This document shows, in pieces, positions 3,538 to 19,435 of a stretch of DNA of 50,241 bases (positions are counted from its first letter, which is position 1; each line of letters starts with the position of its first letter). The notes beneath the pieces were generated by a model. The model had not been told where the DNA came from. It ran no database searches and saw only the letters and a list, made by a program, of their open reading frames with translations. Both the position numbers and the translations under genes were made by a program. Source of the DNA: an uncultured beta proteobacterium (GTDB lineage: Bacteria; Pseudomonadota; Gammaproteobacteria; Burkholderiales; Rhodocyclaceae). The stretch lies in contig CAINHS010000091.1 of NCBI GenBank assembly GCA_903848955.1, forward strand, positions 1-50,241, in the 5' to 3' direction.

Positions 3538-3555
3538 TTAGAGTGGCCGGCCTAA
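3538..3555. promoter_or_regulatory. operator-like palindrome TTAG-N10-CTAA, site 1
   Basis: The 18-mer TTAGAGTGGCCGGCCTAA lies in the divergent promoter region between the FFLxDLYGP protein and the aldehyde dehydrogenase operon. It matches 14 of 18 positions with a second site at 10885-10902, in the divergent region between the fatty acyl-CoA reductase and the phasin; consensus TTAGWGTGRCCKSYCTAA. The size and dyad are typical of TetR-family operators, and a TetR gene is present at 11664. The link between regulator and site is inference. Confidence 0.5.
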
Positions 3556-3623: not shown

Positions 3624-5057
3624 ATGAATGTGATCGAAGCGGCGTTACATCAGGAAGCGCAGACAGCAGCGTTCAGGGGCGTGTTCGAGCGCATGCACGC
3701 GGCGACCCGGCGCAGCCCGGCGGTGGAGCGCGGCATCCGGCTGGCGCGTCTGGATGCTTTGGCGGCTCTGGTACATGACAATGTGGAGAGCTTCGTCAAG
3801 GCGATCAGTGAGGACTTCGGCCATCGCTCCGCGCACGAAACCCGCCTGCTGGAAATCTTTCCCTGCCTCGAAGCCGTCCGCCATAACCGCTCGCACTTCG
3901 GTGCCTGGATGAAGCCGCAGCGCAAGGCGGCATCGATCTGGTTCCGCCCGGGGCGGGCGCGCGTCATCAACCAGCCGCTGGGCGTGGTCGGCATCATCGT
4001 GCCGTGGAACTATCCGCTGTTCCTGGCCATCTCGCCGCTCGCGGCCGCCCTGGCGGCCGGCAACCGGGTGATGCTCAAGATGTCCGAATTCACCCCGCGT
4101 TGCGGCGAACTGCTGGCCGGACTGGTGGCAAAGTACTTTGCCGCGGACGAGGTCTCGGTGGTTTTGGGCGATGCGGCGGTGGGCGCCGGTTTTGCCCGGC
4201 TGCCCTTCGATCATCTGCTGTTTACCGGCTCGACCGGCGTCGGCCGCGACATCATGCGCATGGCGGCGGACAACCTGACTCCGGTCACACTGGAACTCGG
4301 CGGCAAGTCGCCGGCGATCGTCGGCCCCGACTATCCGCTGGCCAAGGCGGCCGGGCGCATCATGGTCGGCAAGCTGCTGAATGCGGGACAGACCTGCATC
4401 GCGCCCGACTACGTGCTGGTGCCGGCCGGCCGCGAACAGGCTTTCGTCAAGGCGGCGCGCGCCGTCGTCGCCAGGTGCTACCCGGACATGGGGACGACGC
4501 CGGATTACACCGCCATCGTCAATGACCGCCATTTCGAGCGACTGCAGGGCTATGTCGTCGACGCCAGGGCGCGCGGCGCGAAGATCGAGCCGCTGTCGAC
4601 GGCTGCCGCCGACGCAACGCGGCGCATGCTGCCGCCGCTGGCGCTGCTCGACGTCGATGACGGCATGCGCGTGATGCAGGACGAGATCTTCGGTCCGCTG
4701 TTGCCGGTGCTGCCCTACCGCGACCTCGACGCCGCAATCGCCTGGGTGAACCGGCATCCGCGCCCGTTGGCGCTGTACTGCTTCGAGAACGATGCCGGGC
4801 GCCGCGATCGCGTGCTGCACGAGACGGTGGCCGGCGGCGTCACGGTCAATGACACCATCCTGCACATCGCGCAGGAGAACCTGCCCTTCGGCGGCGTCGG
4901 TCCCAGCGGCATGGGCCATTACCACGGCATCGAGGGTTTCCGCACCTTCTCCAAACAGAAGGCGGTGTTCTATCAATCGCCGCTGAACGGCATGGCGCTG
5001 TTCAATCCACCCTATGGCGCGTTGTTCGAGCGCCTCACCCGTTTTCTGATTCGCTGA
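3624..5057 (+). CDS. aldehyde dehydrogenase, coniferyl-aldehyde-dehydrogenase subfamily
   Basis: A NAD(P)-dependent aldehyde dehydrogenase of 477 residues that oxidises an aldehyde to the acid. The catalytic Cys258 is in GQTCIAPDYV, a wording typical of the CalB/ALDH3-like branch, and the glutamate loop is VTLELGGKSPA. The NAD-binding sequence IVPWNYPLFL and the phenylalanine-rich GVGPSGMGHYHG end are intact. The ATG at 3624 was chosen over an in-frame TTG at 3600 because of family-like length. It heads a tight operon with a Tat-exported subunit (5063), a GMC alcohol oxidoreductase (5587) and a lipase (7215). Known substrates of this branch include coniferyl and long-chain aliphatic aldehydes; in this context fatty aldehyde is the better guess. 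Confidence 0.88.
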   Translation: MNVIEAALHQEAQTAAFRGVFERMHAATRRSPAVERGIRLARLDALAALVHDNVESFVKAISEDFGHRSAHETRLLEIFPCLEAVRHNRSHFGAWMKPQRKAASIWFRPGRARVINQPLGVVGIIVPWNYPLFLAISPLAAALAAGNRVMLKMSEFTPRCGELLAGLVAKYFAADEVSVVLGDAAVGAGFARLPFDHLLFTGSTGVGRDIMRMAADNLTPVTLELGGKSPAIVGPDYPLAKAAGRIMVGKLLNAGQTCIAPDYVLVPAGREQAFVKAARAVVARCYPDMGTTPDYTAIVNDRHFERLQGYVVDARARGAKIEPLSTAAADATRRMLPPLALLDVDDGMRVMQDEIFGPLLPVLPYRDLDAAIAWVNRHPRPLALYCFENDAGRRDRVLHETVAGGVTVNDTILHIAQENLPFGGVGPSGMGHYHGIEGFRTFSKQKAVFYQSPLNGMALFNPPYGALFERLTRFLIR

Positions 5058-5062
5058 GGACC

Positions 5063-5590
5063 ATGTTCACTCGACGCCAATTCATCAAGACCGGAATCGG
5101 TGGCGGCCTGCTGCTGACGGCGGCTGCGCTGCTGCACAAACCGCTGGACCGCATCGGCAAGCAGGCGCTGGTCGCCGCCAATCCGCTCGATCCGTCGCTG
5201 CGCAGCGTGGTGCGGGCCATCGCCCCGGTCATCCTGCTGGGCGCTTTCCCGGCGACGGATCCGGCTCGCGCTGCGGCCCTGGAGCGGATCACCCGGGGCG
5301 TCGCGCTGGCCGTCGCCGCGCTTGGTGCGTCAGCCCAGAAGGAAGTCGCGGAACTGTTCGCGCTGCTGGCCTTCGCCCCGACGCGCATCCTCGTCGCCGG
5401 TGTCAGTGCCGACTGGGATCAGGCCGGCGTCGCCGACATCGAGACCTTCCTGCGACGCTGGCAGGACAGCCCCATGGACCTGCTGAAAACCGGCTATCAG
5501 GCCCTGCATGATCTTGTGCTCGGTGCCTGGTATGCCGATTCCGACTCCTGGCCGGCCATCGGTTATCCCGGCCCGCCGGTGCTGCAATGA
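5063..5590 (+). CDS. Tat-signal small subunit resembling gluconate 2-dehydrogenase subunit 3
   Basis: The 175-residue protein begins with a twin-arginine signal (RRQFIKTG, followed by a hydrophobic Gly/Leu/Ala stretch to about residue 30). The remainder is helical and resembles the gluconate 2-dehydrogenase subunit 3 family, small partners of GMC-type flavoproteins. It starts 5 bases after the aldehyde dehydrogenase stop and overlaps the GMC gene by an ATGA junction (5587-5590), implying translational coupling and a complex. The GMC partner has no export signal of its own, so this subunit may carry it through the Tat pathway, as seen for related two-subunit dehydrogenases. Confidence 0.78.
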   Translation: MFTRRQFIKTGIGGGLLLTAAALLHKPLDRIGKQALVAANPLDPSLRSVVRAIAPVILLGAFPATDPARAAALERITRGVALAVAALGASAQKEVAELFALLAFAPTRILVAGVSADWDQAGVADIETFLRRWQDSPMDLLKTGYQALHDLVLGAWYADSDSWPAIGYPGPPVLQ

Positions 5591-7200
5591 TGATCAGGGA
5601 CCCATTCCAGGAAGGCGTTGCGCGCGGTTGGAAGGTGGTCGATGCGGCGCGGCTCGACAGCGACCGCGAAGACAGCGCCGACGTGGTGATCGTCGGCAGC
5701 GGCGCCGGCGGCGGCATCGCCGCCGAAATTCTGAGCCGGTCCGGTCTGCGCGTGATCGTGGTGGAAGAGGGACCGTTGCGCTCGAGCCGGGATTTCCGCA
5801 TGCGCGAGGCCGAGGCTTATCCCGCCTTGTATCAGGAATCTGCGGCGCGCAAGACCGCCGACAAGGGGATCAACATTCTGCAGGGGCGTTGCGTCGGCGG
5901 CTCGACGACGGTCAACTGGACCAGCAGTTTCCGTACGCCGCCGGCTACGCTCGATTTCTGGCAGCGCCAGTTCGGGCTGGCCGATTACACGGCGGAGGCC
6001 TTGCTGCACTGGTTTGAGATGGTCGAACGGCGGCTGTCGATCAGCCCCTGGCTGGTATCGCCCAATGCCAACAACGAAATCCTGCGCACCGGCGCGGCCC
6101 GGCTGGGGATTGCCACGCAGGCGATGCGGCGCAATGTGAATGGCTGCTGGAACCTGGGTTATTGCGGCACCGGCTGCCCCAGCAACGCCAAGCAGTCGAT
6201 GCTGGTGACGACCCTGCCGGCGGCGCTGGAATTGGGCGCGACGGTCTATTACGGACTGCGTGCCGAACGTCTCGCCATGACCGGGGACACGGTCACCGGA
6301 CTGGAATGCGTGGCGATGGACGCGGCGGGGATACGTCCGCGAACGCAACGGGTGCGGCTGCGGGCACGCCATTTCGTCCTCGCCGGCGGCGCCATCGGCA
6401 GCCCGGCGCTGCTGCTGCGCAGTGGCGCTCCCGATCCGTCCGCACAACTCGGCCGGCGCACCTTTTTGCATCCGACCCTGGTCAGTGCGGCGCTGATGGA
6501 AGCGGCGGTCGATGGTTACTCGGGTACGCCGCAGAGCCTGTATTCCGACCATTTCCTCGACAACCTGCCGATCGACGGGCCGCTCGGCTACAAGCTTGAA
6601 GCGCCGCCCCTGCATCCGGTGTTGTTCGCCACCACCCTGCAGGGTTTTGGCGAGGGTCATGCCGCATTGATGAAACAGTTTTCTCACGCCCACGCTCTGC
6701 TTGCCCTGCTGCGCGACGGCTTCAATGTTGCCAGTCGCGGCGGCCAGGTGCGCCTGCGTGACGACGGCACGCCCCTGCTCGATTACCCGCTCGACGACGT
6801 GATCTGGGACGGCGCCCGTCGCGCCCTGCTGAGCATGGCTGAAATCCAGTTCGCGGCGGGAGCCAGGAAGGTTTACGCCGTGCACGAGCAGTGCAGCGGA
6901 TGGGACAGTTGGGCGGCGGCGAAGGAAGGTATCGCGCGGCTGCCGCTGCGCCCCTTGGCGCTGCGCCTGGTGAGCGCGCATGTGATGGGCGGCTGTGCGA
7001 TGGGTGGCGATGCCGCCCGGTCGGTGGTCGATGGGCGCGGACGTCATCACCAGTTGGGCAATCTGACGGTGGCCGATGGTTCGCTGTTTCCCACCAGCAT
7101 CGGCGCCAACCCGCAGCAGTCGGTGTATGGCATCGTCGCGCGCAATATCTCGGCGCTGGCGCAGTCGCTCAGCGGCCGGCCCGCGGCGGCGCTGGCCTGA
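5587..7200 (+). CDS. GMC-family FAD-dependent alcohol oxidoreductase (long-chain alcohol oxidase-like)
   Basis: A 537-residue glucose-methanol-choline family flavoprotein. The FAD dinucleotide motif VIVGSGAGGG is at about 34-43, a second FAD segment LQGRCVGGSTTVNW at about 98-111, and the C-terminal HVMGGCAMGG and NPQQSVYGIVARN segments supply the active-site and FAD contacts. The middle region, with CGTGCPSNAKQSML, recalls the long-chain fatty-alcohol oxidase and cholesterol-oxidase side of the family rather than choline dehydrogenase. It would oxidise an alcohol to an aldehyde, which the adjacent aldehyde dehydrogenase could convert to an acid. The exact substrate cannot be read from the sequence. 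Confidence 0.85.
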   Translation: MMIRDPFQEGVARGWKVVDAARLDSDREDSADVVIVGSGAGGGIAAEILSRSGLRVIVVEEGPLRSSRDFRMREAEAYPALYQESAARKTADKGINILQGRCVGGSTTVNWTSSFRTPPATLDFWQRQFGLADYTAEALLHWFEMVERRLSISPWLVSPNANNEILRTGAARLGIATQAMRRNVNGCWNLGYCGTGCPSNAKQSMLVTTLPAALELGATVYYGLRAERLAMTGDTVTGLECVAMDAAGIRPRTQRVRLRARHFVLAGGAIGSPALLLRSGAPDPSAQLGRRTFLHPTLVSAALMEAAVDGYSGTPQSLYSDHFLDNLPIDGPLGYKLEAPPLHPVLFATTLQGFGEGHAALMKQFSHAHALLALLRDGFNVASRGGQVRLRDDGTPLLDYPLDDVIWDGARRALLSMAEIQFAAGARKVYAVHEQCSGWDSWAAAKEGIARLPLRPLALRLVSAHVMGGCAMGGDAARSVVDGRGRHHQLGNLTVADGSLFPTSIGANPQQSVYGIVARNISALAQSLSGRPAAALA

Positions 7201-7214
7201 AGCGGCAGGCGGCG

Positions 7215-8132
7215 ATGGCGGCGCGGCAAATGCGGTGGCTTCTGTTGGGCGAACTGCTGTTCTATGCGCTTGGCGGCGGCCTGCTGGTAAGCGGCGCCGG
7301 CTGGACCCCGCCGCAGGCGACAAGCCTCGCCCTGGCGATGTTCTTCGGCCTGCGCCTGTTGTTTGTCGCTGTGACTTTCAGCTTGGCCCGGACGGGGGGC
7401 GACATCGTTGCGGACGAATTGCGCATCAGTCCTGCCCGCGCGCTGGGCATGGTGCTCGAGGAATATGCCGGGCTGATTCTGCTGTTCGCGCTGATCCAGC
7501 CCCTGGAACGTTTCTGGCTGGGGCCGGACCGTCTGGCGCAAGCGCCCGCAGGCCGCCTGCCCCTGCTGCTGATTCACGGCTACCAGTGCAATCGCGGCGT
7601 CTGGTTCTGGCTGCGGCCGCGGTTGGAGGCCGCCGGCTGGACGGTGGCGACGCACAACCTGGAGCCGGTCTGGGCGGACATCGACGCCTATGCGGAAGGC
7701 ATTGCCCGGCGCGTCGACCAGGTGCTGGCGGCGAGCGGCGCATCCCGGCTGATTCTGGTCGGCCACAGCATGGGCGGACTGGCCGCGCGCGCCTATCTGC
7801 GACGCTACGGCAAGGACCGGGTGGCGCGCCTGATCACGCTCGGTTCGCCGCATCAGGGCAGTGGCATCGCGCGCCTTGGATTGGGCCGCAACGCCCGCCA
7901 GATGGAGCTTGGCAGCCCCTGGCTGACTGCCCTCGGTGCGCCCGGTGCGGTGCCGCTGCCGCAAGGGTCGGTTTCCATCTACAGTTGCCACGACAATTAC
8001 GTTTTCCCGCAACAGGCCTGTTCGACCCTGGCAGGCGCCGGCAACGTCGCCATCGGCGGCGTCAGTCACATCGCCATGGCCTTCTCACCCCTTGTGCTGG
8101 GCAAACTGCTGGAGGCGCTGGAGGCGCCGTAA
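7215..8132 (+). CDS. membrane-anchored alpha/beta-hydrolase (lipase)
   Basis: A 305-residue protein with two or three hydrophobic N-terminal segments (about 7-100), followed by an alpha/beta-hydrolase domain. The oxyanion region is LLLIHGYQCN and the nucleophile is Ser185 in GHSMGG. A late aspartate (SCHDNYVFPQ) and the histidine in GGVSHIAMA complete a plausible triad. This is a triacylglycerol-lipase-like arrangement. It starts 14 bases after the GMC gene, in the same operon. With an alcohol oxidoreductase and an aldehyde dehydrogenase upstream, it fits release of fatty alcohol and acid from a neutral lipid or wax ester. A second in-frame ATG at 7230 is possible. Confidence 0.82.
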   Translation: MAARQMRWLLLGELLFYALGGGLLVSGAGWTPPQATSLALAMFFGLRLLFVAVTFSLARTGGDIVADELRISPARALGMVLEEYAGLILLFALIQPLERFWLGPDRLAQAPAGRLPLLLIHGYQCNRGVWFWLRPRLEAAGWTVATHNLEPVWADIDAYAEGIARRVDQVLAASGASRLILVGHSMGGLAARAYLRRYGKDRVARLITLGSPHQGSGIARLGLGRNARQMELGSPWLTALGAPGAVPLPQGSVSIYSCHDNYVFPQQACSTLAGAGNVAIGGVSHIAMAFSPLVLGKLLEALEAP

Positions 8133-8792: not shown

Positions 8793-10781
8793 TCAGAAGT
8801 GAATCCCGCGCATGACTTGCGCGAATGCGATTTGATCGGCCGAGGGCAGCGCCGGCTTGTCGTCGGCCTTGTTCTTCGCCGCCGATGAATCGGGGAACAT
8901 CCGGTAGGCGGTATTCATCACGATCTGCGCCACCCGCGGTGCAGCCGCGTGCAGCACCTGGCCCATCACGCCGAGGCGGGTGGCGATGCGTACCGGGCGG
9001 TGCACGATGGCATCGACGATCAGGTCGGCGGCTTCTTCCGGCGTCAGGGTCGGTACCTGATCGTAGAGCTTGGTCGGCGCAATCATCGGCGTCTTGACCA
9101 GCGGCATGTTGATGGTGGTGAACTCGATGCCGCGATCGACGAATTCCGAAGCCGCGCAGCGGGTCCAGGCATCGAGTGCGGCCTTGGAGGCGACGTAGGC
9201 GGAAAAACGCGGCGCATTGGTCAGCACGCCGATGGAGGAAATGTTGATGATGTGGCCGGCGCGCTTGCCGATCATCTTCGGCAGCAGGCCCATGGTCAGC
9301 CGCAGGGAGCCGAAGTAGTTCACCTGCATGGTGCGCTCGAAATCGTGCATGCGGTCGAAGGACGTCTCGATGCCGCGACGGATCGAACGGCCGGCGTTGT
9401 TCACCAGGATATCGACGCCGCCGTGTTCCTCGCTGATCCGGCGCACCACGGCCTCGCATTGCGCCTGGTCGGAGACGTCGGCCGAATAGGTGATCAGCGT
9501 CAGCCCTCTGGCCTTCGCTTCGGCCACGGTTTCCGCAAGCTTCTCCTGGTCGCGGGCGACGATGAGGGTGATCGCGCCGGCCTCGGCGATCTTGAAGGCG
9601 GCGGCCTTGCCGATGCCGCTGGAGCCGCCGGTGATCAGCACCACCTTGCCGCCGACCCGGCCGCGCAGGCTGCGGTCGATGAACAGGTCGGGGTCCATGC
9701 GGCGCTCCCAGTAATCCCACAACTTCCAGGCGTAGCTGTCGAGCGGCGGCACGGAAATGCCGCTGCCGGCCAGAAGCTTTTCGGTTTCCTTGCAGTCGAA
9801 GCGCGTCGGATAATTGACGAACTGCATGATGTCCTCGGGCAGGCCGAGATCCTTCATGATCGCGTTGCGGATGCGGCGCACCGGGGTCAGGGCCATCAGT
9901 GTCTTGCGCACGCTGCGCGGAATGAAGCCGAGCAGGGCGGCATTGATGCGCATCGCCATGGCCGGCGCGTGGCCGGCGCGGGCAAAGACATTGAGCACAT
10001 CGCCGACGCGCATCGGATGCGGGTCGGTGAGGTGGAAACACTTGCCGTCGAGATGCTTGCGATGGGAGATGTAGGCCAGGGCGTCGACCACGAAATCGAC
10101 CGGGACGATGTTGATGCGGCCGCCTTCGAGGCCGATGCTCGGCATCCACGGTGGCAGGATTTGGCGCATCTTCTGGATCAGCTTGAAGAAGTAGTAGGGG
10201 CCGTCGATCTTCTCCGCTTCGCCGCTGCGCGAATCGCCGACCACAACACCGGGCCGATAGACGCGCCAGGGGATCTTGCATTCTTCGCGCACGATGCGCT
10301 CCGACTCGTGCTTGGTGCCGAAGTAGGGATGGTCGAGATTTTCCGCTTCAGCGAACATGTCCTCGCGGAAGATGCCTTCGAACAGCCCGGCGGCGGCGAT
10401 CGAGCTGACATGATGGAAGCATCCGGCGTCGATCTGGCGGGCGAGTTCGACGGCGTTGCGGGTGCCATCGACGTTGGCGGCCATCTGCGCCTCGGCGCTG
10501 GCGCCCAGGTCGTAGATGGCAGCGAGATGGTAGTAATGATCGACCTTGCCCTTGAGCTTCTTCAGATCGGCTTTGCCGACGCCAAGGCAGGGCTGGCAGA
10601 GGTCGCCGACCACGGGTATGGCGCGACTCTTGTCGGCCTTCCAGTAGTCATGGAGCTTCTGCAGTCGCTCGGGCGACTTGTCGCGGGTAAGAAAATAAAC
10701 CGTGGCCGCGGGTTGCTCAAGCAATTTGGCAACCAGTCGCTTGCCGATGAATCCGGATGCCCCGGTGACGAAATAAATCAT
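8793..10781 (-). CDS. two-domain fatty acyl-CoA reductase (fatty alcohol-forming, Marinobacter Maqu_2507 type)
   Basis: The 662-residue protein joins two Rossmann domains. The N-terminal extended-SDR domain has TGASGFIG at 6-13, HHVSSIAAAGLFEG and HPYFGTKHESE (the YxxxK pair). The C-terminal classical SDR has LITGGSSGIGKA, NNAGRSIRRG and FSAYVASKAAL. From memory, length, domain order and many stretches (GIFREDMF, VDGPYYFFK, NIVPVDFVVDAL, NISSIGVLTNAPRFSAYV, YRMFPDS) agree with the 661-residue Marinobacter reductase that takes fatty acyl-CoA through the aldehyde to fatty alcohol with NADPH. A wax synthase sits 2.3 kb away. The start at 10781 has a GAGGGGACC Shine-Dalgarno. It is divergent from the phasin gene. 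Confidence 0.92.
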   Translation of the reverse strand: MIYFVTGASGFIGKRLVAKLLEQPAATVYFLTRDKSPERLQKLHDYWKADKSRAIPVVGDLCQPCLGVGKADLKKLKGKVDHYYHLAAIYDLGASAEAQMAANVDGTRNAVELARQIDAGCFHHVSSIAAAGLFEGIFREDMFAEAENLDHPYFGTKHESERIVREECKIPWRVYRPGVVVGDSRSGEAEKIDGPYYFFKLIQKMRQILPPWMPSIGLEGGRINIVPVDFVVDALAYISHRKHLDGKCFHLTDPHPMRVGDVLNVFARAGHAPAMAMRINAALLGFIPRSVRKTLMALTPVRRIRNAIMKDLGLPEDIMQFVNYPTRFDCKETEKLLAGSGISVPPLDSYAWKLWDYWERRMDPDLFIDRSLRGRVGGKVVLITGGSSGIGKAAAFKIAEAGAITLIVARDQEKLAETVAEAKARGLTLITYSADVSDQAQCEAVVRRISEEHGGVDILVNNAGRSIRRGIETSFDRMHDFERTMQVNYFGSLRLTMGLLPKMIGKRAGHIINISSIGVLTNAPRFSAYVASKAALDAWTRCAASEFVDRGIEFTTINMPLVKTPMIAPTKLYDQVPTLTPEEAADLIVDAIVHRPVRIATRLGVMGQVLHAAAPRVAQIVMNTAYRMFPDSSAAKNKADDKPALPSADQIAFAQVMRGIHF

Positions 10782-10884
10782 TGCGGTCCCCTCGATATTG
10801 TCCGACGCCTGCCGCGGCTGCGAGCCGGCGGCCTGACGCGGAATGATACAGAACCCCGGTGGCTAGAGGGGGCCGCCCATGACA

Positions 10885-10902
10885 TTAGTGTGACCTCTCT
10901 AA
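10885..10902. promoter_or_regulatory. operator-like palindrome TTAG-N10-CTAA, site 2
   Basis: TTAGTGTGACCTCTCTAA lies in the 214-base divergent region between the fatty acyl-CoA reductase (start 10781) and the phasin (start 10996). It shares 14 of 18 positions with the site at 3538-3555. Being roughly 100 bases from both starts, it could control both directions. The binding protein is unknown; the TetR-type regulator encoded at 11664 is the nearest candidate. Confidence 0.5.
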
Positions 10903-10995
10903 TCCGCATCGCTAGACTTCCTTTGGTGGCAGGCGGTGGGTCTGCCGGGGTCTCGACGGCGAGGCTTCAGGAATCACTCAATTCAGGAGATTGTC

Positions 10996-11466
10996 ATGGT
11001 AAAGAAGCTCGTGGTCAAAAAACTCAAGTCCGTCGGCCAGGATAGTCAGCTTTCCGCCACCATTCGCGAATCCGCCCAGCAAATCTGGCTGGCCGGTCTC
11101 GGTGCCTTCGCCAAGGCACAGGAAGAGGGCAACAAGGTGTTCGATGCGCTGGTTCGCCAGGGCGAGTCGATCCAGCAGAAAACCCGCAAGGTGGCCGAGG
11201 ACAAGGTGACCGAAATGGCCTCCAAGGCGACCGGCACATGGGACAAGCTTGAGCAGGTATTCGAGAATCGCGTTGCCCGCTCGCTGGGCAGCCTTGGTGT
11301 TCCGACCAAGGACGAGGTCGCGCTGCTGAGCAAACGCGTTGCCGAACTGAAGGCGGCGGTGGACAAATTGAGCGCGGCCGCAGGCAAGCCGGCAAAAGCG
11401 GCGGTTACAGCGCCCAAACCGGCACGTCGGGCGGCGCCCAAGGCGGCAGCCAAGGCCGCCAGCTGA
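10996..11466 (+). CDS. PhaI/PhaF-type granule-associated protein (phasin)
   Basis: A 156-residue phasin of the poly(hydroxyalkanoate) granule-associated family. The conserved SAQQIWLAGLGAFAKAQEEG segment is at about 28-47, followed by an amphipathic helix and a leucine-heptad stretch (VALLSKRVAELKAAVDKL). The C-terminal 28 residues are an Ala/Lys/Pro-rich tail resembling a short version of the DNA-binding histone-like tail of PhaF. Phasins coat PHA granules and sometimes wax-ester or triacylglycerol droplets. The start at 10996 follows an AGGAGA Shine-Dalgarno; an earlier in-frame start would lack one. No PHA synthase is in the window, so granule type is inferred from context. Confidence 0.9.
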   Translation: MVKKLVVKKLKSVGQDSQLSATIRESAQQIWLAGLGAFAKAQEEGNKVFDALVRQGESIQQKTRKVAEDKVTEMASKATGTWDKLEQVFENRVARSLGSLGVPTKDEVALLSKRVAELKAAVDKLSAAAGKPAKAAVTAPKPARRAAPKAAAKAAS

Positions 11467-11663
11467 CGTCGCCGGGCGCCGCCGGAGGCAGCGTGCCGGA
11501 ACAGGTCCGGGGTCGGCCGCGCTGCGTCTGTCAGATACCCCGGGTGAGCTCGGCCGGGCATTGAGGCGGAGGCAGCGGCGGCGGTACCTCTGATCGCGGA
11601 TTGATGCCGGGAGATTTGTGGGTTTCTGCTATCCTCGACGCAATAGTGGAGGCTGGCAAATTG

Positions 11664-12314
11664 ATGGATCGTAAGCCGAAGCGCCGCACGCGCGAGCGCA
11701 TTCTGGAAACTGCTCTGGTGCTGTTCAATGACTTCGGTGAGCCGAATGTCACCACGCAGCTGATTTCCGACGAGATGGGGATCAGCCCGGGCAATCTTTA
11801 CTACCATTTCCACAACAAGGACGAGATCATCGAGTCGCTCTTTGCCGATTTCGAGCGCGGCATCGAAGACACCCTGGCGGCGCCGGTAAAACGTCCGCCG
11901 AACGTGGAAGACATCTGGCTGTTTCTGCATCTGGTATTCGAGGGCATCTGGAAGTTCCGCTTTCTCTACCGCGACATCAACGAACTGCTGTCGCGCAACC
12001 GCATACTGGAGACGCACTTCAAACGCATTGTGGCGCACAAGGTGCACACTGCCGGCTTGATCTGCAAGGGGCTGGTGGCGACCGGAGACATGAAGGCGAC
12101 GCCGGCGGAGATTCAGGCGCTGGCGATCAACATGACCGTTGTCGCGACGTACTGGCTGTCGTTCGAGTTTGTCAGCGATCCGCGCAAGAAGATCGGCAGC
12201 GAGAATCTGGCGCGCGGCGCCTTTCAGGTCATGGCGCTTGCCGCGCCTTACCTGACAGGACGCTCGCGCAAGTTGTTCGATGAACTGTCGGAAAATTACC
12301 TGAAGCTTGAGTAG
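11664..12314 (+). CDS. TetR-family transcriptional regulator
   Basis: The 216-residue protein has an N-terminal TetR DNA-binding domain (about 8-55): RRTRERILETALVLFNDFG, then the recognition helix region ISPGNLYYHFHNKDEII. The C-terminal ligand domain is not recognisable by eye. TetR regulators near acyl-CoA enzymes usually sense acyl-CoAs or fatty acids and repress lipid genes. It lies between the phasin and a TPR protein on the same strand, 1.0 kb from the acyl-CoA reductase start, and is a candidate reader of the TTAG-N10-CTAA sites. The ATG at 11664 has a TGGAGG Shine-Dalgarno 11 bases upstream. Confidence 0.88.
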   Translation: MDRKPKRRTRERILETALVLFNDFGEPNVTTQLISDEMGISPGNLYYHFHNKDEIIESLFADFERGIEDTLAAPVKRPPNVEDIWLFLHLVFEGIWKFRFLYRDINELLSRNRILETHFKRIVAHKVHTAGLICKGLVATGDMKATPAEIQALAINMTVVATYWLSFEFVSDPRKKIGSENLARGAFQVMALAAPYLTGRSRKLFDELSENYLKLE

Positions 12315-12333
12315 AACGGAGAGGAGACCCATC

Positions 12334-13116
12334 GTGGCAAAATCGACCTGGCATAAATTTCCGCATGCGGACAAGGCGTTTGTTTTTGCGGGCGCGGCAC
12401 TGAAGAAGAACTGGGAGCGCCTGCATCGCGGCGACCGTGAACCCTTCCCGGCGGAGGCCGCGGTGCAGGAGGCATGGCGCCTCTATCATCAGGGCGAATT
12501 CCACAAGGCCTGCGAGGCGGGCCTGGCGGCCGGCGTCGATGGCTACAACGCGGCGAACAAGGCGACGATGATCTACGCCAATTACCTCGAGGTGGATGAA
12601 AAGCGCAAGCTGGAGCTGTTTCAGGCCGTTTCCGCGCGCTGCGAGGAACTGCAGAAGGCGCAACCGAAAAATGCCAATGCCTGGTACATCCAGGCCTATG
12701 CGCTGGGGCGCTACAGTCAGGGCATCTCGGTGCTCAAGGCCCTCACCCAGGGCTTGGGCGGCAAGATCAAGGCGGCGCTGGAGACGGCCATCAAGCTCGA
12801 CCCCAAGCATGCCGATGCGCTCATCGCGCTCGGTGCCTACCATGCCGAGGTGGTGGACAAGGTCGGCGCCATGGTCGGCAAGCTGACCTACGGCGCCAGC
12901 AAGGACGTGGCGGTGAAACACTTCGAAGCGGCGCTGAAGCTGGCGCCCGATTCGGCCATCGCCTGCATCGAGTATGCCAATGCACTGGTCATGCTGTTCG
13001 GCCAGAGCCGCATGGATGAAGCCGTCAAGCTCTACGAAAAGGCCGCCGCGGCAAAGCCGGTGGATGCCATGGAACGGCTTGACGTCGAACTGGCGAAATC
13101 CGAGCTCGAAGACTGA
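12334..13116 (+). CDS. TPR-like helical repeat protein of unknown function
   Basis: A 260-residue soluble protein. Helical pairs such as NANAWYIQAYALGRYSQGI, ALETAIKLDPKHADALIALGAYH and HFEAALKLAPDSAIACIEYANAL have the spacing of tetratricopeptide repeats, about four to five of them from residue 45 on. TPR proteins are protein-interaction scaffolds; no enzymatic motif is visible. A GTG start at 12334 is chosen because it follows a GGAGAGGAG Shine-Dalgarno, 19 bases after the TetR gene ends. It is convergent with the wax synthase gene and abuts it, with only 3 bases between the stops. Confidence 0.75.
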   Translation: MAKSTWHKFPHADKAFVFAGAALKKNWERLHRGDREPFPAEAAVQEAWRLYHQGEFHKACEAGLAAGVDGYNAANKATMIYANYLEVDEKRKLELFQAVSARCEELQKAQPKNANAWYIQAYALGRYSQGISVLKALTQGLGGKIKAALETAIKLDPKHADALIALGAYHAEVVDKVGAMVGKLTYGASKDVAVKHFEAALKLAPDSAIACIEYANALVMLFGQSRMDEAVKLYEKAAAAKPVDAMERLDVELAKSELED

Positions 13117-13119
13117 GGC

Positions 13120-14703
13120 TTAAGCCAGATTGCGGAAACGCTTCGGCACCCTTGCTGCAGGTGCCGCCGCAGGCGTTTCCGCGGCGACTGCCGGCTTGCT
13201 GCGGGCGGTCCTTGCCGCCTTCGGCTTTGCTGCGGCGCCAGCGGGTAGCGGCGGCGGCTGTTTGCCGAACAGCTGTTGTTCGACCTGCGCCGGATCAAAC
13301 GGCGCCTCCCAGTCGAGCATCAGCAATGCCAGCATCATTTTCTCGAATTCGGCGGCGAACAGCGGCGTGATGGTCTCCGGGTCCGGCACAAAATGGCGGT
13401 CGGTGATCAGGCCGAACTGGACATTGTCGGCGTAGCTCAGAATCGAGACGCCGATGCCGATGTCGCCCGATTGCGGCACCCAGAACATCACCTGATCGAG
13501 GCGCGAACCGGCCAGATACAGGGGCTGCTTCGGTCCCGGCACGTTGGTCATCACGGTGCTGGCCTTGGCGGCGAGGATGTCGAGGAACTGCTGCTGCACC
13601 ATCTTCGGTGCAATGCCGACGGCGGCGAGCAGGGCCAGCGTCAGCGGGGGCTGATACGAGCCCTTGAGTTCGTTCATGCGCTGCCGCACCAGGAACAGGC
13701 GCGCAAACGGATTGCCTTCATGCAGGGGCAGCAACAGGGTGCCGAGGCCGAAGCGGTTGCCCAGCGTGCCTTCATCCCTGGCCGAGCGCAGATTGACCGG
13801 AATCATGGCGCGGACGCCGACGTCGTGCACCGCTTCGCCCTTCTGCAGAAAATAGGCGCGCAGGGCGCCGGCCACGGCCGACAGCAGGATGTCATTGACC
13901 GAACAGCCGAGTGCCTTGCCCATCGCCTTGACTTCGCCCAGCGGAATCAGATCCGACCAGGCGACGCGCTTGATCGAGCCGGTTTTCCCCTTCAGGCTGG
14001 TGGCCGAATCGGCCGGCATGGCGAGCAACTTGGCGAGTTCGGTGAGGAGTCCGATGCCATGCCGCCCGTAGGTGGCCAAACGGTCCCGGTCGGACGCCAG
14101 GTCCAGTGCCTTGCCGCCCAGTTCGGTGCCCATGCTGAGCGCAGCGCCGAGCGCCCCGGTCAGGGTTTCGAGCAGGCCGCCGGGCAGGTCGCCGGCGTCT
14201 TCTTCCGCTTGCGCGGCGACCCGTTTTTGCGCCACGGCGTGCGGCGAAACATCGGTGAGCGAGAGGATGACTCCGACCAGCGCAATGCCGTCGGCGATGC
14301 TGTGGTGGATGCGCACCACCATCGCCGAGCCGCCGTTGTAATCCTCGATCAGATCAAAACGCCACAGGGGTTTGCCGGGGTTGAGCGGCTGCACCGCCAG
14401 TTCGCTGGCCAGTGCCTGCAATTCCTCCTTGCCGGCACCGGCCGGCAGGGTGCGGCACCTGAGGTGTGCGCCGAGATCGAAATCAGGATCGTCCTGCCAC
14501 CACGCACCGCTGACCTCTTGTACTGCGCATTGGCGGAAGCGACGGTAGCGCCCGACCAGGCGGGCTTCGACCGTATTGCGCAGCCGCTCGAGGTTCATTC
14601 GCCGGTTGAATACCATGACGCCGACGATCATCATCAGGTTGGTCGGGCGGTCCATCCGCAGCCAGGCCGTATCGACGGCCGACATTTTTTCGCGTCTTGG
14701 CAT
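13120..14703 (-). CDS. wax ester synthase / diacylglycerol acyltransferase (WS/DGAT)
   Basis: A bifunctional-type acyltransferase of 527 residues. The catalytic HHxxxDG motif is intact (H133, H134, D138, G139 in IHHSIADG). Family landmarks include MSAVDTAWLRMDRPTNLM at the start, NDILLSAVAGALR and VMTNVPGP in the second half. It esterifies acyl-CoA with a fatty alcohol (wax) or diacylglycerol (triacylglycerol) at the membrane or droplet surface. The C-terminal 40-50 residues are a Lys/Ala/Pro tail that most WS/DGATs lack. The start at 14703 has a GAGGA Shine-Dalgarno; an ATG at 14730 would begin inside the tandem repeats. Together with the acyl-CoA reductase this suggests a complete wax-ester pathway. 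Confidence 0.93.
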   Translation of the reverse strand: MPRREKMSAVDTAWLRMDRPTNLMMIVGVMVFNRRMNLERLRNTVEARLVGRYRRFRQCAVQEVSGAWWQDDPDFDLGAHLRCRTLPAGAGKEELQALASELAVQPLNPGKPLWRFDLIEDYNGGSAMVVRIHHSIADGIALVGVILSLTDVSPHAVAQKRVAAQAEEDAGDLPGGLLETLTGALGAALSMGTELGGKALDLASDRDRLATYGRHGIGLLTELAKLLAMPADSATSLKGKTGSIKRVAWSDLIPLGEVKAMGKALGCSVNDILLSAVAGALRAYFLQKGEAVHDVGVRAMIPVNLRSARDEGTLGNRFGLGTLLLPLHEGNPFARLFLVRQRMNELKGSYQPPLTLALLAAVGIAPKMVQQQFLDILAAKASTVMTNVPGPKQPLYLAGSRLDQVMFWVPQSGDIGIGVSILSYADNVQFGLITDRHFVPDPETITPLFAAEFEKMMLALLMLDWEAPFDPAQVEQQLFGKQPPPLPAGAAAKPKAARTARSKPAVAAETPAAAPAARVPKRFRNLA

Positions 14704-14727
14704 TGCGTTCGTCCTCAATGGTGAAGT

Positions 14728-14875
14728 CATATCGCCGGGATACCGTTCCCGCTTTCAGCGGAAACATATCGCTAGGATACCGTTCCCACTTTCAGTGGAA
14801 ACATATCGCGAGGATACCGTTCCCACTTTCAGTGGAAACATATCGCTAGGATACCGTTTCCACTTTCAGTGGAAA
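14728..14875. repeat. four 37-bp tandem repeats, each with an internal palindrome
   Basis: Four consecutive 37-base units begin CATATCG at 14728, 14765, 14802 and 14839; a partial fifth starts at 14876. Each unit carries a 21-base palindrome (14745-14765, 14782-14802, 14819-14839, 14856-14876) with arms of the form GTTTCCAC and GTGGAAAC around TTTCA. In unit 1 both arms change together (CCGC/GCGG instead of CCAC/GTGG), which keeps the dyad. The array fills the divergent promoter region between the wax synthase and the acyl-CoA-binding protein, and the last palindrome ends two bases before a TATAAT. A cooperative operator array is the simplest reading. Confidence 0.93.
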
Positions 14876-14931: not shown

Positions 14932-15189
14932 ATGAGCGAACTCAAGAACCAGTTTGAAACAGCGGTAGCTGATTCGAAGAAACTGCCGGAGCGGCCTTCG
15001 ACCGATGTGCTGCTGCAGCTCTATGCGCTTTACAAGCAGGCTACGGATGGCGATGTGGAAGGCAAGCGCCCCGGCTTCACCGACATGATCGGTCGCGCCA
15101 AGTATGACGCCTGGGCCGCGATCAAGGGCACGGCGGGCGAGGCCGCGATGAAGAGTTACATTGAATTGGTCGGTTCGCTGAAAGCCTGA
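14932..15189 (+). CDS. acyl-CoA-binding protein (ACBP)
   Basis: An 85-residue protein, the size of a free-standing ACBP. The hallmark ligand residues are there: YALYKQAT at about 31-38, then KRPGF and AKYDAWAAIKG. ACBPs bind medium- and long-chain acyl-CoA in the cytoplasm, protect it from hydrolysis and deliver it to acyltransferases. They are universal in eukaryotes and scattered in bacteria. Here the gene is divergent from the wax synthase, sharing the 37-bp repeat array, so supply of acyl-CoA for wax or triacylglycerol synthesis is the likely role. The frame extends upstream into the promoter, but MSELKNQFE at 14932 is the natural start. Confidence 0.93.
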   Translation: MSELKNQFETAVADSKKLPERPSTDVLLQLYALYKQATDGDVEGKRPGFTDMIGRAKYDAWAAIKGTAGEAAMKSYIELVGSLKA

Positions 15190-15223: not shown

Positions 15224-15514
15224 CTAGGTCACAGGTCCGAAGTTCTCGTCGCAGAAGCGGTTTATTTCGTGCTCGATGCGCGGGCCCAGTGCCATGAGCA
15301 GGAAGCCGAGCTTGACCTCGATCTCGACGTCCTTCTTGCCTACCTCGATGTACCCGGAGACTCCCATGCGCTTAAAGCGCAGGGTGTTGCCTTCCCACGC
15401 ATGGTCGAGGCCGAACTCCTCGCCCAGTTCTTCGGCAATGTGTTCGGCACCCTTGCGCGCGTGCTTCAGCGTTGTTCCGTGCGGGCGGCAGACCCTGATT
15501 TCGCTCATTGTCAT
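15224..15514 (-). CDS. polyhydroxyalkanoic acid system family protein
   Basis: A 96-residue protein matching, as I recall it, the small PHA-granule-region family: [28 protein letters not shown]-type start, a central [12 protein letters not shown] strand region and an [19 protein letters not shown] end. Proteins of this family occur in PHA gene regions and are thought to affect granules; the biochemical role is unknown. Its start codon overlaps the stop of the acyl-CoA ligase upstream (ATGA at 15511-15514), so the two are translationally coupled. A second ATG at 15508 is also possible. Confidence 0.82.
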
Positions 15515-17190
15515 TGTCCGGCGCCCTGGGCTTTCTCGTCGCGCAGCTGGCGCCGCAGGATCTTGCCGACGTTGGTTTTCGGCAACTCGCTGCGGAAAGC
15601 AATCTGGCGCGGCACCTTGTAGCCGGTGAGGTGGGTGCGGCAGTGTTCGAGAATCGAAGCCTCGGTCAGGTCCGGGTCCTTCTTGACCACGAAAATCTTC
15701 ACCGCTTCCCCGGTTTTTTCGTCGGGAACCCCGACCGCGGCCGACTCCAGCACGCCCGGATGCATGGCCAGAACGTCCTCGATCTCGTTCGGATAGACGT
15801 TGAAGCCGGAGACCAGGATCATGTCCTTCTTGCGGTCGACGATCTTGAAGAAACCCCTGCTGTCCATGATCGCGACGTCGCCGGTGCGCAGGAAGCCGTC
15901 GTCCATGATGACTTTCCGGGTTTCGTCGGCGCGGTTCCAGTAGCCCTTCATGACTTGCGGGCCGCGGATGCACAGTTCGCCGGGTTCGCCCATGGGCAGA
16001 TCCTTGCCGCTGTCGTCGCGAATCGTCACTTCGGTGGAGGATATCGGCAGGCCGATGGCGCCGTTGTATTCGGGGATGTCGAGCGGGTTCATGGTGGCTG
16101 CGGGCGAGGTTTCGGTCAGGCCGTAGGCTTCGATCAGGGTGACGCCGGTGATCTGCTTCCAGCGCTCGGCCACGGCGCGTTGCACCGCCATGCCGCCACC
16201 CAGCGTGAGGTGGAGCTGGCTCAGGTCCAGCTTGGCGAATTCCGGATTGTTGATCATGGCGTTGAACAGCGTATTGACGCCGGTGATGGTCGAGAACCGG
16301 TACTTGCCGATCTCCTTGATGAAACCCGGAATGTCGCGCGGATTGGTGATCAGCAGATTGGTGGCGCCGATCTTGAAAAAGGTCAGGCAGTTGGCCGTCA
16401 GGGCGAAGATGTGATACAGCGGCAGGGCGGTGACGATGATCTCCTCGTCGCGCAGGGAGGGCGTTATCCAGGCGTGCGCCTGCTGCAGGTTGGCGATGAT
16501 GTTGCGATGGGTCAGCATGGCGCCCTTCGACACCCCCGTGGTGCCGCCGGTGTATTGCAGGAAGGCGAGATCATCGTGGCCGACGTCCACCGGCTGCAGG
16601 GGGTAGCGGACGCCCTCGATCAGGGCGTCGCGCAGTTCGATTGCGCCCGGCAGGTGCCAAGCCGGCACCATCTTCTTGACGTGCTTGACCACCAGATTGA
16701 CGATCATGCGCTTGGGAAAGTCCAGCATGTCGCCCAGTTGCGTCACCAGCACATGCTTGAGCGGGGTGCGCGCGACCACCTTGTCCAGCACGCTGGCGAA
16801 GTTCTCGACGATGACGATGGCCTCGGCGCCGGAATCCTTGAGTTGGTGCTCAAGCTCGCGCTCGGTGTACAGCGGGTTGCAGTTCACCACCGTGTAGCCC
16901 GCGCGCAGGGCGCCATACAGGCAGATCGGGTATTGCAGCAGGTTGGGCATCATCAGCGCAATGCGGGCGCCCCTCGGCAGTTTCAATACGGACTGGCAGT
17001 AAGAACCGAAGGCCGCCGACAGCCGGTCGAGCTCGGCGTAGGTGATGGCCTTGTCCATGTTGATGTAGGCCTTGCGCGGGCCATAGAGCTTTACGCTCTT
17101 TGTAAAAAGATCCCCGATCGAGTCGAACTCGTCGAGATTGACTTCAGCGGGTACGCCTGCCTGATAACTCTTGAGCCAGATCTTTTCCAT
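15511..17190 (-). CDS. fadD: long-chain fatty-acid--CoA ligase
   Basis: An AMP-forming acyl-CoA synthetase of 559 residues. The P-loop-like signature [18 protein letters not shown] is at about 215-232, the A5 motif [12 protein letters not shown] at about 360, and the A8/A10 region [26 protein letters not shown] and [23 protein letters not shown] completes the C-terminal domain with the catalytic lysine. It activates free fatty acids with ATP and CoA, feeding beta-oxidation or ester synthesis. The start at 17190 follows GAGGAGG. It is coupled to the PHA-system protein and lies 79 bases downstream of a lipase gene on the same strand, so a lipase-ligase operon is likely. Confidence 0.93.
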
Positions 17191-17269: not shown

Positions 17270-18472
17270 TCAGGCAAGCCATTTCTGCAATTGTTCGCAT
17301 ACCCCGGCACTGTCCAGCAGATCCAGATGATTCATGCCGTAGCGGACCCACTGCTGCGACTCGGGAAAGTTCAGGCTGCGCTCGGCTTCCGCATGCTGGC
17401 CGAGGGCGCTGCGCAAGGGCACCAGTCCGTCGCCGGGCAGCTCCGCTGCGGAAGCGCCGGCGGCGAGTGTTGCGCCTGCTGCGCAGCACTTGACACCCGC
17501 CGGCAAGGGCACCGGGGTTCTGTGCTTCTTGTGCGCGAAGCGGTCGCCGTGTTTCCAGTCCGCGTCGACAATGCTGCCGTGACGCAGGTCGGTGATCCCG
17601 GCACTGCGGATTTTGGCGAGGCGGGCCAGCGCGGCGGTGTAGGGGCTGACCTCGAGAATGACATTGACCCAGTTGCCGCCCCGCTCGAGCGGGGCACCGT
17701 GGTGAGGGGTGCCGAGGAAAATCAGCTGCCGCAAGTGCTGCAGCCAGGCGTGTCCGGCGCGCCGGCCGTAGTGACAGGCGCTGTGGGCAAGCAGTCCGCC
17801 CATGCTGTGGCCGATGATGGCCAGTTGTTCCACGGCGACCGGCCAGGCCTGCAACAGGGTTTCCAGGATTGCGGCAAGGGCGCGGCCGTTGCTCGAAATG
17901 TGCTGGCCGCTGTTGTAGTGCAGATACAGCGGAGTGAATCCGGCGGCAGCCAGCGCTGCGCCATGGTCGTGGCCGTTGCGCTGCCACTGCAGGTCGTTCA
18001 TGCACAGCCCGTGCACCAGCAGCAGGATCCTGCCGCCGGCGCGCGGGATGGCGGCGGCCAGATGCTGCGGCGTGAGGATCAGCGGCTGGCCGTTGTGCCG
18101 CAGTTGCATGGGTATGGCGAGGGGATTGGCGCTGGCGGCGAGGTGGTCGCCCAATACGCCGTTGAGCGCGGCAAGGATGGCTTCGCGCGCCGCGGAGGAC
18201 GGTGCCAGTTGCGGTTCGAGCAGCGGCAGCAACTTGCCAAGCAAGGCGTCGATGCCGCTGCCGACCAGTCGGGTCGTGCCCTGGATGCTGCGATAGACCA
18301 GTCCGGTGATGCCGCCGGCCGGTTCCCGGCTGTACTCGCCGAGGGGGCCGGGCGTGCGGGCGATGTTGTGGTGCATGCTCTCGACCAGACGGGTCAGACC
18401 TATCGTGGCGTCGACCGCGAGGCGGCTGTAGCCGCGAATGTCAGCCGCTCGGATATGGCTCTTCCTGGTCAT
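17270..18472 (-). CDS. alpha/beta-hydrolase, esterase/lipase
   Basis: A 400-residue protein. After a roughly 145-residue helical N-terminal region comes an alpha/beta-hydrolase domain with ILLLVHGLCMND (oxyanion side), Ser223 in GHSMGG, LGTPHHG, a candidate acid in PGDGLVPLRSA and the histidine in YGMNHLDLL. No signal peptide is seen, so it is probably intracellular. Being upstream of the acyl-CoA ligase on the same strand suggests that it releases fatty acids from stored lipid or polymer that are then activated. Intracellular PHA depolymerase-like activity cannot be excluded. The ATG at 18472 begins MTRKSHIRAADIRGY. Confidence 0.82.
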   Translation of the reverse strand: MTRKSHIRAADIRGYSRLAVDATIGLTRLVESMHHNIARTPGPLGEYSREPAGGITGLVYRSIQGTTRLVGSGIDALLGKLLPLLEPQLAPSSAAREAILAALNGVLGDHLAASANPLAIPMQLRHNGQPLILTPQHLAAAIPRAGGRILLLVHGLCMNDLQWQRNGHDHGAALAAAGFTPLYLHYNSGQHISSNGRALAAILETLLQAWPVAVEQLAIIGHSMGGLLAHSACHYGRRAGHAWLQHLRQLIFLGTPHHGAPLERGGNWVNVILEVSPYTAALARLAKIRSAGITDLRHGSIVDADWKHGDRFAHKKHRTPVPLPAGVKCCAAGATLAAGASAAELPGDGLVPLRSALGQHAEAERSLNFPESQQWVRYGMNHLDLLDSAGVCEQLQKWLA

Positions 18473-18532
18473 GGCTGAATTACCGGTCTGCTCATCGTTA
18501 GAATGCCCTGTCTCCCGCTCGCCGATTATCCC

Positions 18533-19423
18533 ATGCGCCCGCCGTTGTTCCCGCTGTTGCAAGCCGCCGCTGTCGTCATGCTGTGTCTGCCGGCGCGCGC
18601 CGCGATTGTTGTCGTCGATGCCGGCGGCGTCACCATCACCCTCGCCGCACCGGCGCAGCGCATCGTCAGCCTGGCGCCGAACCTTACCGAACTGTTATTC
18701 GCCGCCGGCGCCGGAGAGCGGGTGGTGGGCAGCGTCGATTTCAGCGACTATCCTGCGGCGGCTAGGGCCCTGCCCAGGGTGGGCGGCCATTCCCTCGATC
18801 TGGAAGCCATCGTCGCCCTCAAGCCCGACCTGGTCATGGCCTGGGAAAGCGGCACCGCGGCGGCGGCGGTCTCGCGCTTGCGATCCATGGGACTGAATGT
18901 CCACCTGTCAGAGCCAAGGCGCATCGAGGATATTCCCGGCGAACTCGAGCGCATCGGCCGGTTGGCCGGCACCGGGGCCACGGCCGATGCCGCAGCGGCG
19001 GCGTTCCGCCGGCGTTACGCGCTGCTGGCCGCCCGCTACAGCCGGCGGCCGCCGGTGACGGTGTTCTACCAGATATGGAAGCAACCCCTGATGACGGTCA
19101 ACGGCAGGCAGATCATCAGCGACGCCATACGCCTGTGTGGCGGGCGCAACGTCTTCGAGCAACTGCCGGTCCTGGCGCCGACCGTCACCGTCGAAGCCGT
19201 CATCGCCGCCAACCCGGAGGTCATTGTCGCCAGCGGCATGGGCGATTCGCGGCCGGAATGGCTGGACGACTGGAAGCGCTGGACCACGCTCGAGGCGGTG
19301 GCCCGCGACAATCTGTATTTCGTTGCGCCGGACCTGATTCAGCGCCACACGCCGCGCATTCTGGACGGCGCCGGACAACTCTGTCTGCACCTGGAGAGTG
19401 CGCGCGCCAAGCGCGGCAAGTAG
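18533..19423 (+). CDS. btuF: cobalamin/heme-type ABC transporter substrate-binding protein (BtuF-like)
   Basis: A periplasmic class III substrate-binding protein of 296 residues with an N-terminal signal peptide (hydrophobic to about residue 23, ending LPARA). Motifs RIVSLAPNLTELLFAAGAG, GGHSLDLEAIVALKPDLV and GGRNVF are typical of BtuF and related vitamin B12/heme/siderophore binders. The matching receptor, permease and ATPase genes lie at 21.9-25.7 kb on the opposite strand under a cobalamin riboswitch, which is why vitamin B12 is the favoured ligand. No riboswitch precedes this gene; only 60 bases separate it from the divergent lipase. An in-frame ATG at 18503 is an alternative start. Neither start has a clear Shine-Dalgarno. 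Confidence 0.82.
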   Translation: MRPPLFPLLQAAAVVMLCLPARAAIVVVDAGGVTITLAAPAQRIVSLAPNLTELLFAAGAGERVVGSVDFSDYPAAARALPRVGGHSLDLEAIVALKPDLVMAWESGTAAAAVSRLRSMGLNVHLSEPRRIEDIPGELERIGRLAGTGATADAAAAAFRRRYALLAARYSRRPPVTVFYQIWKQPLMTVNGRQIISDAIRLCGGRNVFEQLPVLAPTVTVEAVIAANPEVIVASGMGDSRPEWLDDWKRWTTLEAVARDNLYFVAPDLIQRHTPRILDGAGQLCLHLESARAKRGK

Positions 19424-19435
19424 GCGACGATATTT

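Follow-up and report, generated by a model that had tools for sequence, protein, structure and literature searches.

Genes of the locus

A contig of 50,241 nucleotides (CAINHS010000091.1, assembly GCA_903848955.1), called the window below and used for all window coordinates, was analysed for a putative wax-ester gene set centred on a fatty acyl-CoA reductase (FAR) and a wax ester synthase/diacylglycerol acyltransferase (WS/DGAT). The assembly is a draft of 3.62 Mb in 151 contigs. The closest named records found through the FAR were Sulfuritalea, Rhodocyclaceae and Rhodocyclales metagenome-assembled genomes (MAGs), with identities up to about 90%, and at the sequence level the host bacterium is related to Sulfuritalea. 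The features of the locus are listed in Table 1.

The FAR matched the NF005539/PRK07201 profile over its full length (residues 1-662) with 1007.3 bits, the cut-off being 549, and is composed of an NAD_binding_4 (Male sterility) and an adh_short domain. Both bind nucleotides as reductase domains do, and both contain a glycine-rich motif (TGASGFIG and TGGSSGIG, respectively) and a YxxxK motif. In up to 81 aligned rows the catalytic residues were kept almost throughout (Tyr153 in 81/81, Lys157 in 79/81, Tyr529 in 80/80 and Lys533 in 80/80). The full-length match, the two-domain plan and the motifs are common to the window FAR and the AcrB/PRK07201 reductases; AcrB and Maqu_2507 are taken here to be the same enzyme type. 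The assignment of the window FAR to the Maqu_2507 type is based on the PRK07201 profile and on literature: this profile was used to call AcrB (PMC11948995), two related betaproteobacterial proteins are about 59% identical to Maqu_2507 (PMC10351704), and Maqu_2507 is listed as an NADPH-dependent, alcohol-forming reductase (PMC7744569).

The WS/DGAT scored 371.3 bits against TIGR02946 (cut-off 309.95) and contains the stretches HHSIADG, PLW, ND and NVPGP. The HHSIADG motif is intact at residues 142-148, with His142, His143, Asp147 and Gly148 present in all 38 covering rows of 41 aligned. Compared with the solved WS/DGATs 7nxg and 6chj, the window enzyme lies over the family cut-off and has an intact active-site motif (E = 6.8e-29 to 7nxg). 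The dN/dS ratios were 0.12-0.22 for the FAR and 0.19-0.23 for the WS/DGAT (four comparisons each), and because of these low values both enzymes are under purifying selection. Further WS/DGAT-like genes are found at the ends of contigs C121 and C77 of the own genome, G000 (loci L128 and L129). They are 30% and 36% identical to the window copy, so that by sequence two or more types of WS/DGAT are encoded in the host genome.

All genes named in the sequence-only reading (FAR, WS/DGAT, phasin, TetR and TPR) were present and intact at their places and matched their family profiles. An acyl-CoA binding protein (ACBP) and a PHA_gran_rgn protein are encoded just beyond the interval 8793-14703 which that reading had covered. 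The phasin scored 132.9 bits against PF05597 (cut-off 28.8) and 97.0 against TIGR01837 (cut-off 94.7), and no second PF05597 match was found in the assembly. Other contigs carry five phasins of the PF09361 family and three PhaC genes. These five phasins weaken a role of the window phasin as general polyhydroxyalkanoate (PHA) coat, and the pattern fits, without proving it, a separate phasin coat for a wax store, distinct from the polyhydroxybutyrate coat. The TetR_N domain of the regulator reached 41 bits in PF00440 (cut-off 24).

At lower coordinates than the FAR, an aldehyde dehydrogenase (ALDH), a GMC oxidoreductase with a probable partner protein and an alpha/beta hydrolase (ABH1) form a run of genes in one direction. 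The closest solved relatives of the ALDH were steroid aldehyde dehydrogenase 9nxl (351 bits) and fatty aldehyde dehydrogenase 4qgk (294 bits). For the GMC oxidoreductase no solved relative was found at E<=1e-10, and the 175-residue partner gave no Pfam match; its twin-arginine-like start, judged by eye, suggests that it is exported.

Table 1. Features of the probable wax-ester locus in the window and of the substitute reductase at two other loci
Feature	Position	Strand	Remarks
nifU and nifS	475-2725		TIGR02000, TIGR03402 over cut-off; about 1 kb before the ALDH run
Palindrome TTAG-N10-CTAA, second	3538..3555	.	TTAGAGTGGCCGGCCTAA; centre about 134 bp upstream of ALDH start
Class-3-type aldehyde dehydrogenase (ALDH)	3681..5057	+	
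175-aa protein, probable GMC partner	5063..5590	+	twin-arginine-like start (by eye)
GMC oxidoreductase, probable alcohol dehydrogenase	5587..7200	+	PF00732 167 bits, PF05199 72 bits
Alpha/beta hydrolase ABH1, candidate lipase/wax hydrolase	7203..8132	+	PF00561, PF07819
PurE-like protein, 200 aa	8169-8771	-	weak AIR-carboxylase match; between ABH1 and FAR
Two-domain FAR, PRK07201 (AcrB/Maqu_2507) type	8793..10781	-	
Palindrome TTAG-N10-CTAA	10885..10902	.	TTAGTGTGACCTCTCTAA; divergent FAR/phasin intergenic region
Phasin (PF05597)	10996..11466	+	
TetR-family regulator (PF00440, PF13972)	11646..12314	+	longer reading frame starts at 11601
TPR protein	12334..13116	+	TPR profile matches
WS/DGAT	13120..14730	-	codon score puts start at 14685
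ACBP	14932..15189 (about)	+	PF00887 99 bits
PHA_gran_rgn protein	15224..15508	-	TIGR02610 82.4 bits (cut-off 40.25)
FadD-type ligase	15511..17190	-	NF005463 896 bits (cut-off 869)
Second alpha/beta hydrolase (ABH2), PGAP1-like	17270..18472	-	
Substitute reductase, locus L117	13021-15264		
Substitute reductase, locus L118	13849-16191		

Distribution and clustering

Co-occurrence of the two enzymes was counted in 150 genomes sampled from the family, the own genome among them, at E<=1e-60 for the FAR and E<=1e-10 for the WS/DGAT. A FAR of PRK07201 type was present in 23 genomes and a WS/DGAT in 32. WS/DGAT was found in 22 of the 23 FAR-positive genomes versus 10 of the 127 FAR-negative ones (Fisher p ~1e-17, relatedness ignored). 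By match coordinates, both genes lie on one contig and at most 10 kb apart in 14 of the 23 FAR-positive genomes.

Synteny was followed in a set of named loci, the best 80 of 92 loci found through the FAR, many of which are cut by contig ends; gene presence was scored at E<=1e-6. The loci are spread over beta-, gamma- and some alphaproteobacteria, and parts of the gene set occur in Comamonadaceae, Chitinimonas, Competibacteraceae, Xanthomonadales-type MAGs and a few alphaproteobacteria. Phasin genes were detected at 62 of the 80 loci, part of these matches being weak (about 30% identity), followed by TetR (48), WS/DGAT (40), patatin (39), ACBP (38), TPR (34), PHA_gran_rgn (24), FadD (14), ABH1 (11) and GMC (6). 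For the 31 loci flanked by 9 kb or more on either side, the corresponding numbers were 27 for phasin, 21 for TetR, 19 for WS/DGAT, 18 for ACBP, 7 for ABH1 and 3 for GMC. The patatin-like gene is mostly situated between phasin and TetR, and is also present at locus L118; the window has no such gene at 11467-11645. The PurE-like gene was considered as a member of the set and rejected, being absent from all 80 loci.

A conserved palindrome and the proposed regulon

Alignment of the FAR/phasin intergenic regions of 11 loci revealed a near-invariant palindrome, TTAG-N10-CTAA. Allowing at most one mismatch, TTAGNGNGNNCNCNCTAA matched the window exactly twice, at 10885-10902 and at 3538-3555, where 0.04 matches were expected and none of 100 shuffled sequences had two. 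The core was then scanned in 90 sources (the window, the 80 FAR loci and nine genome stretches; 1.52 Mb in total). Thirty-eight core sites were found, of which 24 lie within 250 bp upstream of phasin genes, 11 upstream of ALDH genes and three elsewhere (two in L077 and one in L126, where by coordinates the GMC partner gene starts within less than 80 bp of the site). Control spacers of 6-9 and 11-14 gave 21 sites, none upstream of phasin or ALDH. Eleven of the 24 phasin sites come from the loci that gave the pattern and are counted by construction, while the other 13 and all ALDH sites are independent.

The palindrome is carried by all 11 ALDH genes (>60% identity) with upstream DNA present, and by two further ALDH genes (L153 and L154) in the two genomes with an apparently exchanged reductase described below; the ALDH genes of L017 and L019 are cut off before the site position and were left outside this count. 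When 12 informative positions were used and 11-12 had to match, 26 hits were obtained in 1.55 Mb (92 sources) against four with the reversed control. All 26 were located upstream of phasin (21) or ALDH (5); L013 and L119 are the same contig, leaving 25 distinct hits.

The exact core precedes 24 of 71 phasin genes. Sorted by identity of the TetR protein, it was present at 18 of 21 loci with at least 60% identity, at 5 of 30 with 40-60%, and at 1 of 20 with lower identity or no TetR. The three loci with a close TetR but no exact core (L122-L124) have near matches to it before phasin. Because the exact core follows the close TetR orthologues, we propose that the TetR protein probably reads the palindrome, a pairing predicted from these sequences. 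Since 35 of the 38 sites lie just upstream of phasin or ALDH, compared to none of the 21 sites of other spacing, the genes for synthesis, coat and probable mobilisation look like one regulon.

Apparent replacement of the reductase in two genomes of the genus

No FAR was found in genomes G069 and G117 of the same genus, the best remaining matches being single-domain with 31% and 34% identity. Both genomes keep WS/DGAT (77-82%), TPR, TetR, phasin, ACBP, PHA_gran_rgn, FadD and ABH2, as well as the palindrome before phasin. Upstream of phasin and in its direction, they carry, in order, genes for ALDH, ABH1, a GMC enzyme, an iron-type alcohol dehydrogenase (Fe-ADH) and a protein of 747/780 residues. 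Compared with the window, the ALDH is 84-87% and ABH1 64-69% identical, and the GMC enzyme is unlike that of the window. The palindrome again lies about 110-130 bp before the ALDH start in both. Between ABH1 and phasin the window has the FAR on the opposite strand, whereas in G069 and G117 this place is taken by the GMC/Fe-ADH/reductase trio, which ends the run that the palindrome heads; the GMC pair located before ABH1 in the window is absent in both.

Residues 310-650 of the substitute protein align with PigE (4ppm) and a cyanobacterial acyl-acyl carrier protein (acyl-ACP) reductase (6jzq). The Cys of its YACLAET stretch has a Cys counterpart in the chains of both enzymes and was present in all eight covering relatives (nine aligned); it presumably corresponds to the catalytic Cys of acyl-ACP reductase. 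The protein could work like a long-chain acyl-ACP reductase. It was not assigned to TIGR04058 or PigE because its scores, 63.4 bits versus a cut-off of 449.7 and 179 versus 850, are far below both. It also differs from both in about 300 extra N-terminal residues, for which no Pfam match was found (L117 searched). Its tail is rich in Lys, Ala and Pro as judged by eye.

In the family sample, the substitute was found only in these two genomes (2/150, E<=1e-10), and in a sample of the order in 7 of 399 genomes (E<=1e-20). One of the latter, G228, was dropped, as it has the reductase domain alone at 29% identity, so that eight carriers in four genera are left, two from the family and six from the order. 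An Fe-ADH gene adjoins the substitute at 8 of 9 loci, the ninth (L143) being a contig that starts inside the gene, and all eight carrier genomes have a WS/DGAT somewhere. Only in G069 and G117 is the pair situated inside the wax set. A tree of neighbouring genes from 18 loci paired L117 with L118 (96%), within a group that has full support and whose other members are FAR carriers; the order within that group is weakly supported.

One replacement of the FAR by the reductase/Fe-ADH pair is the simplest reading of this tree and gene order. That the alcohol-forming step of wax synthesis was exchanged in place within the genus, with a two-step route for the FAR, is in our judgement somewhat favoured, and gains probability because the palindrome and the ALDH head the exchanged run in both genomes. 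The substitute reductase and Fe-ADH would convert the acyl thioester via the aldehyde to the alcohol, in two steps versus one for the FAR. This apparent non-homologous replacement supports a fatty-alcohol role of the FAR.

Proposed pathway and alternative explanations

We consider it probable that the genes form a storage and recycling set which makes, coats and re-burns wax-ester droplets. In this pathway, for which activities and product are predicted from sequence, FadD and ACBP would supply and carry long-chain acyl-CoA. The FAR would reduce the acyl-CoA to a fatty alcohol with four electrons from NADPH, and the WS/DGAT would join this alcohol with a second acyl-CoA to a wax ester. The resulting droplet would be coated by the PF05597 phasin, perhaps also by the PHA_gran_rgn protein. 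For re-use, an alpha/beta hydrolase would split the wax ester, the GMC enzyme and the ALDH would oxidise the alcohol to the fatty acid, and FadD would re-activate it. The TetR repressor, encoded behind phasin, would bind the palindrome at the divergent FAR/phasin promoter and before the ALDH run, and could thereby put coat, synthesis and oxidation under one signal, plausibly acyl-CoA or fatty alcohol. The action of ABH1, GMC and ALDH on wax is presumed, and this oxidative role is the weakest link of the model.

Wax-ester formation had already been suggested by the sequence-only reading. It is still the best reading, and gains strength from the co-occurrence and synteny of the genes, from the palindrome they share and from the enzyme swap. 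Rarity of the FAR/WS-DGAT pair was not supported and was rejected, in view of the 23 of 150 genomes and the 80 loci; clustering with phasin and ACBP genes is common at FAR loci, and has partly been published for betaproteobacteria (PMC10351704).

Several observations weigh against the proposed storage set, its regulon or the exchange. In 9 of the 23 FAR-positive genomes, FAR and a good WS/DGAT were not seen close together: they lie on separate contigs in five (G132, G028, G025, G120 and G090) and far apart in G007; G125 and G014 have weak WS/DGAT matches alone, the FAR match of G014 also being partial; and in G077, which is 85% complete, no WS/DGAT was found at E<=1e-10. The WS/DGAT may yield triacylglycerol instead, which sequence cannot decide. 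In the window, the palindrome was not found before WS/DGAT, ACBP or FadD, and the exact core is lacking before phasin at 47 of the 71 loci, mostly in distant groups. The link between site and TetR is confounded by relatedness, which could be the source of part of the pattern. Because the closest solved structure to the ALDH is that of a steroid aldehyde dehydrogenase and the GMC partner is apparently exported, the ALDH-GMC-hydrolase arm may serve other alcohols. A true FAR is also present in four of the eight carriers of the substitute, and in the six order genomes the substitute pair and the best WS/DGAT are on different contigs, with no WS/DGAT in the stretches read around the pair. Finally, G065 (L126) has neither FAR nor substitute reductase but keeps the cluster with its palindrome, which could reflect either triacylglycerol alone or another source of alcohol; the set can therefore exist without a dedicated alcohol source.

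One alternative is a triacylglycerol/PHA granule locus, in which the WS/DGAT would act as diacylglycerol acyltransferase, phasin and PHA_gran_rgn would serve PHA, and the FAR would be a side activity; the FAR-less cluster of G065, the PHA-named families of phasin and TIGR02610 and the three PhaC of the genome point in this direction. However, none of the three PhaC lies in the window, and with five PF09361 phasins elsewhere the window phasin is not the sole PHA coat. The FAR is tightly tied to the WS/DGAT, and the two FAR-less genomes of the genus have another alcohol-forming pair in its place, so that we regard a granule locus of this kind as unlikely.

The genes could also serve the breakdown of long-chain alcohols, alkanes or sterols taken up by the cell, with FAR and WS/DGAT merely buffering the surplus. 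An exported GMC enzyme, ALDH, hydrolases and FadD would then act as oxidisers. The twin-arginine-like start of the GMC partner (by eye) and the similarity of the ALDH to a steroid enzyme agree with this, and the ALDH run has the palindrome in common with phasin. At the FAR loci, however, GMC and ABH1 are far rarer than phasin and WS/DGAT, both in the whole set and among the loci with full flanks, and the oxidative arm therefore looks optional beside a storage core, which makes a primarily catabolic function quite improbable. We give least credence, and very little, to a FAR feeding another lipid (ether lipids or envelope) whose nearness to WS/DGAT would be general lipid clustering: three of the 23 FAR-positive genomes have no WS/DGAT or weak ones, and at three of the 31 full-flank loci (L040, L048 and L088) WS/DGAT, phasin and ACBP were all not found at E<=1e-6, but the co-occurrence of FAR and WS/DGAT is strong and their adjacency is repeated in distant groups.

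Relation to published systems

A section of Galvan et al. 2023 (PMC10351704) describes scaffolds from betaproteobacteria in which the WS/DGAT has ACBP, a homologue of Maqu_2507 and a PHA-system protein as neighbours. The grouping of WS/DGAT, ACBP, Maqu_2507 homologue and PHA-type protein is thus common to these scaffolds and the window, the phasin in that section being in another scaffold. The regulator, the shared operator, the ALDH-GMC-hydrolase run and the enzyme swap are not mentioned in the section on the scaffolds. A literature search revealed no shared operator for both gene runs and no reductase swap among the matches listed, and nothing was found on a wax ester synthase with a TetR family operator. 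For wax esters and Rhodocyclaceae, no paper on wax synthesis was found by title, and Sulfuritalea was not paired with wax esters among the matches listed, which is no proof of absence. The enzyme pair is of a known kind; the proposed regulon layout and the apparent replacement of the FAR offer new leads.

In the balanced set of PMC11948995, FarA was found in 1%, AcrB in 31% and the new FcrA in 26% of WS/DGAT bacteria, which by subtraction leaves at least about 42% without any of the three. Aldehyde-forming reductases (Acr1 and acyl-ACP reductase) combined with a separate aldehyde reductase are established in engineered hosts (PMC7744569). If true, the swap would add one more route to those through FarA, AcrB and FcrA, which form alcohols, and Acr1, which forms aldehydes, and might explain some of the WS/DGAT bacteria that lack FarA, AcrB and FcrA. 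The proposed regulon turns a gene pair into a testable system, in which one short DNA site marks genes of synthesis, coat and probable oxidation for a wax store in a bacterium that is not among the well-studied marine wax producers.

Other features of the window

The sequence-only reading had also proposed stored wax as a possible electron reserve alongside nitrogenase, and at the gene level the presence of nitrogenase was confirmed. In addition to nifU and nifS in the window, nifH (467 bits) and nifD (870 bits) are encoded by contig C71 of the assembly; because of these genes, a molybdenum nitrogenase is likely in the host genome. Wax was engineered in the nitrogen fixer Azotobacter, which makes no wax esters natively (PMC12358690).

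Downstream of the set, a row of open reading frames at 18503-25704 resembles, by eye, a secreted binding protein, ABC ATPase, permease and outer-membrane receptor, perhaps for corrinoid or siderophore uptake. The row at 26072-30258 encodes a metallo-beta-lactamase-fold protein, a GMC-like protein (by eye) and a methylmalonate-semialdehyde dehydrogenase (TIGR01722 over cut-off), and is adjoined by a tRNA-Asp gene at 30395. The region 36000-48000 has a G+C content of 0.55-0.58 compared to 0.61-0.70 in 1-36000, and holds genes for a PAS hybrid histidine kinase, a Cache-HAMP adenylate cyclase and an ABC substrate-binding protein; it is possibly acquired DNA.

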